From Vulcanimicrobiota bacterium (GTDB taxonomy: Bacteria; Vulcanimicrobiota; Vulcanimicrobiia; Vulcanimicrobiales; Vulcanimicrobiaceae), in NCBI GenBank assembly GCA_003151115.1, contig PLWS01000005.1:186001-250000 (forward strand): a stretch of 64,000 bases of DNA, read 5' to 3'. Made by a program: the position numbers and the translations under genes. The notes below the pieces were generated by a model. The model was not told the DNA's origin, ran no database searches, and saw nothing but the letters and a program-made list of their open reading frames with translations. Below are positions 45,956 through 51,054 of the stretch, one piece after another. Numbering within the stretch: the stretch's first letter is position 1; every line of letters starts with the position of its first letter.

Positions 45956-46967
45956 TGAAGAGATCCGCCAGCGTGCGGATATTTTCGGTATCTGAAGTGA
46001 AGCCCAGGCGGTCCAAGCCCCACGCGTCTTCGATCGTACGCAGCAGCGCATAATGGTTGTAGTCAAAGTGCGAGACGTAGCCGCGTTTGACAATGCCGCC
46101 CACGGCGATGAACGGAATCAATCCGCCCCCGTAAGTGCCGCCCTTGGGAAGCAGCATCGTGCCGGGCGGCAACGCCGGCGCGTCGCAGCAGCCGTCGGCG
46201 TTAAGCCACCCGCCGGTGGCGGGATTTCCGGTGTACGTCGTTTCGTCGGTCAAGATGAAGATGACCGAATGACTCGTCCAGCTCGTGGAGTGCATCAGCA
46301 CCGGCACCCATTGTTTGACGAAGTCGTCTCCGCTGCGGCGAAGGTCGACGTCTTTTGCGTACGGACACGGCTCCTCGGGCATGCCGTGCATGTCTTTGCA
46401 GACGTCGGGCGATATCCAGATGTACTTCGCGAGCTTGCCGCTTTTGGCATCACTCGCGAGCTGGTCGAGCGGCACGACTTTCGCACGGCGCGCCGGATTG
46501 TTGCGGACGTCATCGTAGAGCATAAATGGGTTGTGCCGGATGACGTAGAGCGCCGTGTTTTCGTTGGCCGGATAGAAATTGTCCATGAATCCGACCGAAG
46601 GCATGTGTTCCATGTATGCCTTCCACGAAATGTGGTGTGCTTCCAACTCGTCAACAAGGTTCCGGTGATTGAAACGCTGCGTGGGATCGTCGGAATTGCT
46701 GTACCAGTTGGAGCCTGACGTTATCGCGATGTAGTTCGGCAAACTCGGATGGGTCACGCCGTAAAAATTATCCGCATACGCGTATTGATGGGCGTATTGC
46801 GTGATGGTTGGAGCCGCCGGATCGCCGATGACGCTCCGATCGCTGTGATTCTCGAGCATGATGATCACGATGTGGTCGAGTTTGGGCAGGGACGCTGCCT
46901 GCAGACGGGGCGATCCGGCGCAAACGGACGCCAAAATCAGGGCAAGTACGGTAGCCAAACGGCGCAT
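45942..46967 (-). CDS. Secreted acid/alkaline-phosphatase-family phosphoesterase
   Basis: 341 residues, signal peptide MRRLATVLALILASVCAGSP. Phosphoesterase family pattern LDHIVIIMLENHSDRSVIGD, then NFYGVTHPSLPNYIAITSGS and SHSVIFILTDETTYTGNPAT; relatives include acid phosphatases and phosphoglycolate-like esterases. The GGGAGGA SD precedes the ATG at 46967. A 42-residue in-frame extension lies upstream and was rejected. It overlaps the convergent channel gene by 14 bases. Confidence 0.88.
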   Translation of the reverse strand: MRRLATVLALILASVCAGSPRLQAASLPKLDHIVIIMLENHSDRSVIGDPAAPTITQYAHQYAYADNFYGVTHPSLPNYIAITSGSNWYSNSDDPTQRFNHRNLVDELEAHHISWKAYMEHMPSVGFMDNFYPANENTALYVIRHNPFMLYDDVRNNPARRAKVVPLDQLASDAKSGKLAKYIWISPDVCKDMHGMPEEPCPYAKDVDLRRSGDDFVKQWVPVLMHSTSWTSHSVIFILTDETTYTGNPATGGWLNADGCCDAPALPPGTMLLPKGGTYGGGLIPFIAVGGIVKRGYVSHFDYNHYALLRTIEDAWGLDRLGFTSDTENIRTLADLFITRL

Positions 46968-47037
46968 TAGGGTCCTCCCATTCCCTCCGCGTTTCTCCGA
47001 GGAGTTTGTGCGCTCTTTCCCGATAGCTTCAAAGTCC

Positions 47038-48327
47038 ATGACCAAGCGCAGATATCTCGTTTTTCTGCTCATGTTCCTGAGCGTTTTCATCAACTACATG
47101 GACCGGGTGAATTTTTCGGTCTCGATCCCAGCGATCCGGCATCAATTCGGCTTCAGCTTGCAGCAGATTGGATGGATCTTATTTGCCTGGAGCATCGCCT
47201 ACGCCGTCTTCAATTTTCCCGGTGGATGGCTCGCGGATCGGTTGGGTCTGCGTTGGGCGCTGCCGCTGATGCTGGGCTGGTGGTCGGCGTTTACCATCGC
47301 CACTCCCTTCGCCGGAACGCTGGCCGGCTGGTTTGGGGTTCGCTCCTTAATGGGCGCGGGGGAGGCCGGGATCTGGCCCGTCAATGCCAAGTGCGCGAAT
47401 GCATGGGCTGGACCCGGGGAACGCTCGACGCTCTACACGTGGGCGGGCTCGGGTCAATTTCTCGGTCCGGCCGTCGGCTCGATATTGGCGGGCTTCATTG
47501 TCGTTCGATTCGGTTGGCAGTGGACGTTCATTCTGTTTGGCCTGGCGGGCTTGCTGATTCTGCCGTTTTGGATCTTCATCGTGCGCGACCGGCCGGCGCT
47601 GGATCCGCGCGTCAATCCGGCAGAGATCGCTCACATCGGAAACCGCGCGCCGCACGACGAGAAAGCCGATTGGCCCGGGATTTGGAGCGTGCTTCTCAGC
47701 CGCACCGGTTTTGGAATGCTGCTCGTGTATATGACATTCGGATATATCCTCTTCACGTTTTTGAATTGGGTACCGAGCTACATGTTTTACACATTTCACA
47801 TGAGCATTTTCAAAAGTTCGGCATGGGCGAGTCTCGGGCTGATGCTCGGCTTCGCCGGATTCATTCTCTCCGGCCCTTTTAACGATCGCCTCGTCGCGCA
47901 TTTCGATCGGCTCACCGCGCGCCGCATCGGCACTGCGGCGCCGATGTTTTGCTCGATGCTGTGCATGATACTATCGATTTTTAGCGCTCGAGCGGAGCTC
48001 GGCGGAATAACGGCGGTGCTGATCGGTCTCGCGGCACTCTTGATGAACATGACGGTCGGCGCGTGGGCAGTGAACGTCATCGACATCTCGCCGAACCAAG
48101 CCTCCACCGGGTTCGTTTACGGTGTTTACAACGGCGCGCTGAACGTCATGGGGGCGGTGAATTCGCTCATCCTCGCTTGGATTGCGACGCGCTTCGGTTT
48201 TCCGGCGGCGTTCGCCAGCGCTATTCTCTTCATGTTCATCTTTCTGATCAGCATTCTCTTCGTCGTCGACCGGCCGAGCTACACCAAACTCATCGCCCGG
48301 GCGGAACTCTCGCGCAGCGCGGCGTAG
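47038..48327 (+). CDS. MFS transporter, anion:cation symporter (hexuronate/glucarate-like)
   Basis: 429 residues with about 12 hydrophobic helices. N-terminus YLVFLLMFLSVFINYMDRVN is the ACS-family hallmark, and the loop FNFPGGWLADRLGLRWALPL has the MFS G-x-x-x-D-R-x-G-R-like signature; EAGIWPVNAKCANAWAG fits as well. The substrate is likely an organic anion (sugar acid) by family. The start is ATG 47038; the earlier in-frame frame runs antisense to the phosphatase gene. A peroxiredoxin gene follows 9 bases after the stop. Confidence 0.92.
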   Translation: MTKRRYLVFLLMFLSVFINYMDRVNFSVSIPAIRHQFGFSLQQIGWILFAWSIAYAVFNFPGGWLADRLGLRWALPLMLGWWSAFTIATPFAGTLAGWFGVRSLMGAGEAGIWPVNAKCANAWAGPGERSTLYTWAGSGQFLGPAVGSILAGFIVVRFGWQWTFILFGLAGLLILPFWIFIVRDRPALDPRVNPAEIAHIGNRAPHDEKADWPGIWSVLLSRTGFGMLLVYMTFGYILFTFLNWVPSYMFYTFHMSIFKSSAWASLGLMLGFAGFILSGPFNDRLVAHFDRLTARRIGTAAPMFCSMLCMILSIFSARAELGGITAVLIGLAALLMNMTVGAWAVNVIDISPNQASTGFVYGVYNGALNVMGAVNSLILAWIATRFGFPAAFASAILFMFIFLISILFVVDRPSYTKLIARAELSRSAA

Positions 48328-48336
48328 AGGTTACGC

Positions 48337-48753
48337 ATGCTTACTGAAGGCGCCAAAATGCCCGAACTCGACGTCGTCGACGACGAGGGCAAGAAATTCA
48401 ACACGCGCGAGCTGCTCGGCAAGCCGCTGGTCCTGTGGTTTTATCCCAAAGACGACACCCCGGGTTGAACGAACGAGGGGTCGCAGTTTCGCGACGCCAT
48501 TGACCGTTTCAAAGCGAAAAATGCGCAAATCGTCGGGGTCAGTAAAGACTCAGTCGCCAGCCATCAAAAATTCAAGGCCAAATACTCGCTGCCGTTTCCG
48601 CTCATCGCCGACACGGACCACAAGATGTACGACGCGTTCGGAGTCGATGCGCGCACGACGTTTCTCATCGATAAGGACGGCACGATCCGCAAAGTTTGGC
48701 CGAAGGTCAGCGTCGCCGGCCACGCCGAGGACGTCTATAACTCGCTGCCGTAG
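48337..48753 (+). CDS. Probable selenocysteine-containing peroxiredoxin (Bcp/PrxQ-like), UGA at the peroxidatic position
   Basis: 138 codons in one frame from ATG 48337 to TAG 48751, interrupted by one TGA at 48466-48468. Upstream: MLTEGAKMPELDVVDDEGKK, then PLVLWFYPKDDTPG. Downstream: TNEGSQFRDAIDRFKAKNAQ, IVGVSKDSVASHQKFK, ADTDHKMYDAFGV and RTTFLIDKDGTIRKVWP. In peroxiredoxins the residue between TPG and T is the peroxidatic Cys, so the UGA stands exactly there and probably encodes selenocysteine. No Cys occurs in the whole product and no resolving Cys is present (TNEGS where TxEAC is usual), so without Sec it would be inert. A SECIS-like hairpin follows. It would reduce peroxides using thioredoxin or another donor. 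Follows the MFS gene. Confidence 0.82.
48477..48498 (+). promoter_or_regulatory. Candidate bacterial SECIS hairpin downstream of the in-frame UGA
   Basis: GTCGC (48480-48484) pairs with GCGAC (48491-48495) around loop AGTTTC, extended by GG/CC beyond one mismatch. The loop begins 16 bases after the UGA (48468), and G is the second loop base, followed by U. Those features match the published bacterial SECIS description (apical loop with an early G, 16-37 bases from UGA). SelB recognition is inference. Confidence 0.6.
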
Positions 48754-48847: not shown

Positions 48848-49399
48848 TTAATTGTCCGTCTTCGCTTCGCCGCGCGGAAGTGAGAACTGTAGAAGCGAGC
48901 GCACGGGCGCGAGGCCGCGGCTGACGACCGCGCAGCACGTGACGCGCAGCTTCAGTTCCTCCAAGCGGTCTTTGGCCGCGAGCAGCTCGCGCGCGGTGGT
49001 GACGACGTCCTCGAGCAAGAGCACGCGCTGCCCGGCTTCATAAGCGCCCTCGACGTACTCGCCGGCGAACGCGCCGTAGCCTTTGGGTTTTTTGCGCACC
49101 GCGATCATCGGAAGGTTCGCGAGCTGTGAAACCGCGGTGGCGATAACGACGCCGCCGAGTTCCGTGCCGCCGATGAGATCCGGGTTGACCTCGGAGATGA
49201 CCGGAACGAAAAGGCGCGCGATCCGCCGTAAGACGTGCGGATCCGAAAAGAGCCGGAACTTGTCTATGTAATAATCGCTGCGCGTGCCGCCCGCGAGCAT
49301 GTAGTCGCCGCGCGTCAGCGCGCGTTCAACGATGATCTTGCGCAGCCAGTTGATATCGGGCAGGCGCGCTAGCGATTCGTTTGAGCCTAAATACTCCAC
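48848..49399 (-). CDS. pyrE: Orotate phosphoribosyltransferase
   Basis: Adds ribose-5-phosphate from PRPP to orotate in pyrimidine synthesis. 183 residues. MLAGGTRSDYYIDKFRLFSD is the PyrE substrate-loop region, followed by LIGGTELGGVVIATAVSQLA and the PRPP-binding VLLLEDVVTTARELL. The C-terminal part (VRKKPKGYGAFAGEYVEGAY) contains the flexible loop. GTG 49399 is used; it overlaps the binding-protein gene stop by 13 bases. A downstream start cannot be excluded, since the first residues are weakly conserved. Confidence 0.9.
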   Translation of the reverse strand: MEYLGSNESLARLPDINWLRKIIVERALTRGDYMLAGGTRSDYYIDKFRLFSDPHVLRRIARLFVPVISEVNPDLIGGTELGGVVIATAVSQLANLPMIAVRKKPKGYGAFAGEYVEGAYEAGQRVLLLEDVVTTARELLAAKDRLEELKLRVTCCAVVSRGLAPVRSLLQFSLPRGEAKTDN

Positions 49400-51054
49400 T
49401 GCCAGGCGTTCCAGGACTCGGTCACCGGATTGGGTGCGAAGCCCTTGAAGTTGATGCTGATCGGATGCATCGCGCGCTGGTCGTAGAGGAAGATTTCGGG
49501 GAGGTCGCGCGCGAGGTAGGTTTGGATCAATGCGTACGCCTTCTTGCGCGTCGGCCGGTCGTAGTTGTTGAGCGCGACTATTTGCGCGGCTTCCATGTCT
49601 TTGTTGCAGTAGCGCGAGTAGTTGTACCCTTTGGGCGCGACGTTTGCGCACGTATACTGGGAGGCGTCATCAGGATCGATGCCCGCATACCAGCCCGCCA
49701 AGCTCAAGTCGAACTTGCCGCCTTGCAGGATGCCGCCTTCACCGACCGGCGCGAAGAGAATGTCGCCCGGGTAGTACTTGATGTCGGCGATGATGCCGGC
49801 CTGATGCAGCATCTGCTGAAGTTCGATACTGTTCTTGCGCCGCGTCACGTTGCTGTTGTTGCTGACCATCGTTAGCAAAAGCGGCTGGCCGTTCTTCATC
49901 ATGATGCCATCGGCGGCGCGCGGCTTATAGCCGTCGTCGGTCAGCTCTTTCCGCGCGGCCGCAATGTTGGGCGGATACTTCTGAACGTTCCCATAGAAGG
50001 ACCACATCCAATACGGCTGGTCTTCCACCGCGACGCGCGTTTGACCGAAGGTCAGCGTATTGACGATGCGCTGCTTATCGATCGCGTAGGCGACTGCGCG
50101 CCGGACATTCATGTCGTAGAGCGTCTGACCTTTCTGAACGTTGAGCTGGACGTCTTCATAGCCGTTAACGTCAACCCACGCCAAGCAGACGCCCGGAATG
50201 TTCTTGACTTGCGGATAGTTGCTGAGCGAGGCTTCGAACATCCAATCGAGCGTGTGCGTCTGCAGCATAGCACGCATCGTGTTTTCGTCGGGCACGACCT
50301 TAATCACGATTTTCGCGAGGCCCGGTTTTCCCATGAAAAAATTGTCGTTGGCGACGTAGGTGATGTGATCGCCGTGGGCCCACTCGAGGAATTTGAACGG
50401 CCCATCGCTGACGGTCGGCGCCGCGTTGAACGCGATCTGGTTGATATTCGGATATTTGGAGAGCACGTGCGCCGGGACGACCGGATACGGCTGGTCGCTA
50501 TCCGCGAAGAACGTGTTGATGATCGGCGCAAATTTGCGCGTCAGGTGCACCACGACGGTGTAATCGTCGGGCGTATCCACGCTTTTAATGTAGTCGTAGC
50601 CGTGGCGCGAGATGATATTGTTGCCGTTGCTCATGATCGCTTGCCACGACCACTTGACGTCTTTACTCGTGACCGGGACGCCGTCGGTCCACTTCACGTT
50701 CTTGCGCAGATGGTAGGTGATCGTCAAGCCGTCTTTGCTGATGCCACCGTTTTCGAGCGTCGGAACCTCGGCCGCGAGCGAAGGGACGGGCTCGCCTTTG
50801 GGATTCGCGTGTAAGAGCGGCAGGAACGCCAGGAACATGATCATGCCGTCGGTGGTGTTCGAACTCAGCAGCGGGTTGAGGTTCTTGATGTCTTGCTGGA
50901 TCGAAATGCGCAGCGTTCCGCGCGTCGCGTTTGGCGCGGGCGGATCCGCAGGCGCGCCGCACGATAGGGAATTAACCGCGGTGGCGCCGCCGCCGGTCTT
51001 GGTGCAGCCGGCGAGCATCGAGACGACGAGAACGGCAACGACGAAGTGTTTCAT
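49387..51054 (-). CDS. Oligopeptide/dipeptide ABC transporter substrate-binding lipoprotein (SBP family 5)
   Basis: 555 residues. Lipoprotein signal MKHFVVAVLVVSMLAGCTKT, lipobox LAGC. The body matches DppA/OppA-type binding proteins: NPLLSSNTTDGMIMFLAFLP, GISKDGLTITYHLRKNVKWT and DGVPVTSKDVKWSWQAI, then NVRRAVAYAIDKQRIVNTL. It delivers peptides or similar solutes to a DppBC-type permease. No permease is adjacent, although a permease pair opens the window at position 2. Downstream pyrE overlaps its end. Confidence 0.93.
   Translation of the reverse strand: MKHFVVAVLVVSMLAGCTKTGGGATAVNSLSCGAPADPPAPNATRGTLRISIQQDIKNLNPLLSSNTTDGMIMFLAFLPLLHANPKGEPVPSLAAEVPTLENGGISKDGLTITYHLRKNVKWTDGVPVTSKDVKWSWQAIMSNGNNIISRHGYDYIKSVDTPDDYTVVVHLTRKFAPIINTFFADSDQPYPVVPAHVLSKYPNINQIAFNAAPTVSDGPFKFLEWAHGDHITYVANDNFFMGKPGLAKIVIKVVPDENTMRAMLQTHTLDWMFEASLSNYPQVKNIPGVCLAWVDVNGYEDVQLNVQKGQTLYDMNVRRAVAYAIDKQRIVNTLTFGQTRVAVEDQPYWMWSFYGNVQKYPPNIAAARKELTDDGYKPRAADGIMMKNGQPLLLTMVSNNSNVTRRKNSIELQQMLHQAGIIADIKYYPGDILFAPVGEGGILQGGKFDLSLAGWYAGIDPDDASQYTCANVAPKGYNYSRYCNKDMEAAQIVALNNYDRPTRKKAYALIQTYLARDLPEIFLYDQRAMHPISINFKGFAPNPVTESWNAWQWSI

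Follow-up and report, generated by a model that had tools for sequence, protein, structure and literature searches.

Selenocysteine (Sec) peroxiredoxins of COG1225 (Bcp), which carry the motif TxxU, constitute an established bacterial selenoprotein family (PMC9312934, PMC13188914), and Sec peroxiredoxins proved abundant in the Sargasso Sea, with 43 genes (PMC1088965). Five Cys-to-Sec events have been inferred among the peroxiredoxins, and the use of Sec has been tied to low oxygen (PMC1794560). PrxU from Eubacterium acidaminophilum is cited in PMC9312934 as an experimentally studied selenocysteine peroxiredoxin; it represents a different peroxiredoxin subfamily from the one described here, in a strictly anaerobic host. 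The Eremiobacterota go unmentioned in the selenoprotein reviews PMC9312934 and PMC13188914, and a literature search, with most subscription papers outside its reach, yielded no relevant report linking Eremiobacterota or WPS-2 with selenocysteine.

The window analysed here is a stretch of 64,000 nucleotides from a Vulcanimicrobiota bacterium (contig PLWS01000005.1, positions 186,001 to 250,000), whose genome assembly comprises 2.56 Mb in 8 contigs and is about 98.5% complete. It contains a gene, prxQ, that almost certainly encodes a selenocysteine-containing PrxQ (Bcp) peroxiredoxin, as predicted from the gene itself, the conservation of its TGA codon, the Sec genes of the genome and the modelled fold (Table 1). 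In agreement with the original prediction, the reading frame displays no in-frame stop other than this TGA, which occupies the peroxidatic position of the motif PxxxTxxC (the flanks read PKDDTPG-U-TNEGSQFRD), and the translation contains no Cys. In a crude coding-potential scan of the window, the prxQ frame ranked second among 384 TGA read-through frames, and the TGA in this frame is therefore not a chance occurrence. The top-ranked frame is antisense to pyrE, and the scan gave no convincing candidate for a second read-through gene in the window. A search of the window against Rfam detected only a tRNA-Leu. The MFS transporter gene is likewise next to prxQ in no fewer than three further genomes of the genus. 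The conserved neighbour pyrE adjoins both the Sec and the Cys forms of prxQ; since this neighbourhood is common to the two forms, they are orthologues.

Table 1. Positions of the features in the window and, where a contig or locus is named, elsewhere in the genome.
Feature	Position	Strand	Remarks
MFS transporter gene	46858..48327	+	upstream, 9 nt before prxQ
AGAGG, Shine-Dalgarno-like	48326..48330	+	6 nt 5' of the prxQ ATG; shares bases with the MFS stop codon
prxQ/bcp-like gene, predicted selenoprotein	48337..48753	+	138 aa with Sec44; ATG 48337; stop TAG 48751-48753
Trp34 codon	48436..48438	+	Trp in all Sec PrxQ loci; almost always Tyr or Phe in Cys forms
In-frame UGA, candidate selenocysteine 44	48466..48468	+	codon 44; peroxidatic residue of PxxxTxxU; only TGA, TGC or TGT in homologues
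Candidate SECIS hairpin	48469..48509	+	16 nt from UGA to apical loop; weaker in Cys orthologues
Hairpin core stem GUCGC / GCGAC	48480-48484 / 48491-48495	+	
Hairpin apical loop AGUUUC	48485-48490	+	GU-containing
Arg106, invariant active-site arginine	48652..48654	+	alignment of homologues
pyrE, orotate phosphoribosyltransferase-like	48848..49651	-	convergent to prxQ; named from sequence reading, not family search
selA	C1:42266-43588		517 bits, cut-off 268
selB	C1:43608-45440		307 bits, cut-off 242; adjoins selA
tRNA-Sec, anticodon UCA	C1:57430-57519		72.5 bits; ARAGORN agrees; about 12 kb from selB
selD	C6:683687-684610		372 bits
Formate dehydrogenase alpha-like gene	L163 97-3222, TGA 2665-2667, G000 contig C5	-	named by Pfam match and motif

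The product of prxQ matches the Pfam family AhpC-TSA (1.3e-35). The NCBIfam models that it matches best are those of PrxQ (NF053650) and of the Bcp-type thioredoxin-dependent thiol peroxidase (NF006960), yet the scores are below the equivalog cut-offs (122 bits against 260 and 95 bits against 140, respectively), which indicates a divergent PrxQ and not those exact equivalogs. With the PrxU model (NF040737, 233 positions) the score is far below the cut-off (42 of 270 bits). The AlphaFold model presents a complete PrxQ fold with a mean pLDDT of 97.2, and the closest solved folds are BCP/PrxQ proteins (TM 0.89-0.96). The Cys-containing PrxQ/BCP of Xanthomonas campestris, Burkholderia and E. coli are alike in this fold and in the active-site residues, but have Cys where the present product has Sec. 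Pro37, Thr41, residue 44 (U or C) and Arg106 are invariant in 37 homologues. The product is about 13 residues shorter than most of its family relatives. As had been noticed from the sequence, the usual position of the resolving Cys is occupied by Ser (Ser49, at +5); this +5 position is the site of the resolving Cys in E. coli BCP. The resolving position of Xanthomonas PrxQ, C84, identified from the C84S mutant 5iph, corresponds to Lys80. Thus, whereas the Xanthomonas (C84) and E. coli enzymes both possess a resolving Cys, the present product has none, and with Ser49 and Lys80 at the resolving positions and no other Cys it is not an atypical 2-Cys PrxQ. With known Sec peroxiredoxins of COG1225 it shares the domain, the motif PxxxTxxU, Sec in place of the peroxidatic Cys and a UGA followed by a hairpin with a G in its loop; it differs from them by the absence of a resolving or any other Cys.

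An in-frame stop usually marks a broken gene and the window comes from a draft assembly, and the TGA might be a nonsense mutation or a miscalled TGC or TGT. However, TGA is present at the codon of Sec44 in all six genomes of the genus where the gene was found, the genome of the window included (the seventh, G004, 56% complete, gave weaker paralogue matches only and is outside this count). These six genomes being independent, the TGA cannot be put down to a base error; TGA also appears at the same codon in further families and in other phyla. Orthologues in Candidatus Eremiobacterota are 91-96% identical. Within 30 orthologues of the family the column contains U in 12 sequences, C in 18 and nothing else, and across a set of 121 loci that extends to other phyla and contains three paralogues and some duplicates between collections, the codon is TGA in 50, TGC in 57 and TGT in 14. 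The TGA at the Sec codon is the sole stop in 50/50 TGA homologues. The comparisons proposed with the original prediction thus gave Cys or UGA only, with Cys in more distant orthologues, and sister genomes that keep TGA at one codon without scattered nonsense codons. The pN/pS ratio within the genus is 0.04 upstream of the TGA and about 0.10 downstream; being low on both sides, it indicates that prefix and suffix form one gene under strong purifying selection, and the downstream conservation previously held against a pseudogene is borne out. A pseudogene or sequencing error is refuted by the conservation of the TGA, and we grant it practically no probability. Termination at the UGA, leaving a 43-residue peptide only, or read-through conditional on the selenium supply would be another account of the locus. 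Termination at UGA always competes with Sec insertion and a conditional yield is normal in selenoproteins, but the strong constraint 3' of the TGA implies that the full-length product is in use, and this account is extremely improbable.

The decoding of the UGA also has to be considered, as Cys at codon 44 would equally give a working peroxiredoxin, and the codon might be read as Cys or Trp, or by leaky near-cognate suppression, instead of Sec. Against this, the SelA, SelB, SelD and tRNA-Sec that a selenoprotein implies were all detected in the genome of the window, the tRNA-Sec having a UCA anticodon. Further TGA genes were sought in chosen families of this genome. The selD gene contains an in-frame TGA at the catalytic site SSCAGUASK (L010 2392-2394, - strand, G000 contig C6), and its product is by this TGA a probable selenoprotein itself. 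A formate dehydrogenase alpha-like molybdopterin gene (1041 aa) has a TGA at the usual Sec site, in NQARLUHSST. UGA thus occupies two more textbook Sec positions in this genome; the same family search detected no SelW (PF10262). These two Sec-type sites, the hairpin that follows the prxQ UGA (see below) and the orthologue L023, whose own terminator is TGA, all argue against a reading as Cys or Trp or by suppression, which we consider very improbable. The selenoprotein initially held to be probable is supported by the Sec genes, the conserved TGA, the Cys orthologues and the SECIS-like hairpin.

The TGA form of the gene occurs in 26 of the 47 genomes with a clear orthologue. The gene selA was detected in 25/26 of the TGA-form genomes vs 16/21 of the Cys-form genomes; this association by itself falls short of significance (Fisher p 0.076), because the Sec system is retained by many genomes with the Cys form too, where it presumably serves other proteins. 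Five of the six genomes with prxQ but without detected selA have the Cys form. In the TGA-form genome G052, a draft of 370 contigs, neither selA, selB nor tRNA-Sec scored over the cut-off; since the Sec genes are clustered in the genome of the window, one lost contig could explain their absence, which is probably an assembly gap. The tRNA-Sec was not over the cut-off in G031 and G053, both with selA and selB.

The candidate SECIS element lies just 3' of the UGA and has a small apical loop containing a G, a feature of bSECIS elements (PMC1088965). The 48-nt segment with the hairpin, which overlaps the codons of the motif SQFRD, has a folding energy of -18.6 kcal/mol (z -2.1). In the TGA forms of the family, the 7-bp core is paired in 82% of cells, with two-sided changes at three pairs and a covariation score reached by 6/500 shuffles, whereas in the Cys forms it is paired in 63.5% of cells, no better than shuffles. 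RNAalifold alone retained only three pairs. Relative to synonymous-codon shuffles, the mean z of folding is -1.12 for the TGA forms (n=44) and -0.21 for the Cys forms (n=67; p 8e-5, counting related sequences as independent). The consensus stem is missing in some Sec forms (L043, L045 and L127). In the genome of the window, the UGA codons of selD and of the formate dehydrogenase gene are likewise followed at short distance by hairpins, whose loop regions contain GU. Among class-level relatives (L142-L150), many Sec PrxQ genes carry a hairpin of another kind, whose GGUC loop begins about 28 nt 3' of the UGA; going by this hairpin, the recoding element seems to have moved between clades.

Sec and Cys were interchanged at least ten times on a tree of 111 rows from which the Sec and Trp columns had been left out. 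The sister-genus Cys orthologues are located at the same pyrE locus and are about 50-67% identical; they differ by having Cys at the peroxidatic position, a Tyr replacing the Trp ten residues N-terminal to it, and a weaker hairpin. This Trp is found in 49/49 Sec PrxQ loci. In the whole-genome set, drawn without a pattern, the residue at this position in the Cys forms is Tyr (21) or Phe (2), two of these 23 rows being other peroxiredoxins of the genome of the window; among public genome matches, Trp is present in 6/48 Cys forms, with a search pattern that favoured Trp. On well-supported branches, 4-5 of 5 independent pairs associate Sec with Trp (p 0.06-0.25), which is not significant, and the Sec-Trp link is thus a lead only. 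It is conceivable, though on balance we find it rather unlikely, that in this aerobic phylum repeated exchanges between Sec and Cys take place in a 1-Sec PrxQ at one locus, each accompanied by a matching Tyr/Trp change and by a hairpin gained or lost, with the Trp as a Sec-specific adaptation of the active site.

Sec PrxQ are also present in records from Gemmatimonadetes, Deltaproteobacteria, Acidobacteria-type bacteria and Planctomycetota (L111, L119, L120, L124-L126, L083, L084, L131 and L132), and all these loci except L131 keep the Cys at +5. In the same order as the window's bacterium, G037 encodes a different, AhpE-like peroxiredoxin (L153) with a TGA at the peroxidatic residue 46 (TPVUTSQ).

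Based on the genes present, SelA would make Sec-tRNA(UCA) with selenophosphate from SelD, and SelB carrying this tRNA would bind the hairpin just 3' of the UGA, leading to the insertion of Sec at codon 44. By analogy with the conserved peroxiredoxin active site, the selenolate of Sec44, in the pocket formed by Pro37, Thr41 and Arg106, would attack H2O2 or organic peroxides and be converted to a selenenic acid. As the product has no other Cys, it would have to work as a 1-Sec enzyme; regeneration may depend on an external thiol, for example a thioredoxin-like protein or a low-molecular-weight thiol.

The prxQ described here is a further member of the established Sec peroxiredoxin family, in the soil-type, uncultivated phylum Eremiobacterota, for which no selenoprotein report was found. 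The new details are the frequent Sec/Cys exchange, the Trp located ten residues N-terminal to Sec in every Sec form and the absence of a resolving cysteine. The association of selenoperoxiredoxins with anaerobes, named beside proteobacteria in the original prediction, does not hold in this phylum: most Eremiobacteria encode aerobic respiration (PMC6664022), in contrast with the low-oxygen link proposed for Sec peroxiredoxins (PMC1794560). Under standard gene calling, prxQ is broken up into a stub of 43 residues and a fragment, and misannotation is therefore likely in many Eremiobacterota genomes. Closely related orthologues with Sec or Cys at a single locus constitute a natural experiment on what selenium contributes to a peroxiredoxin.
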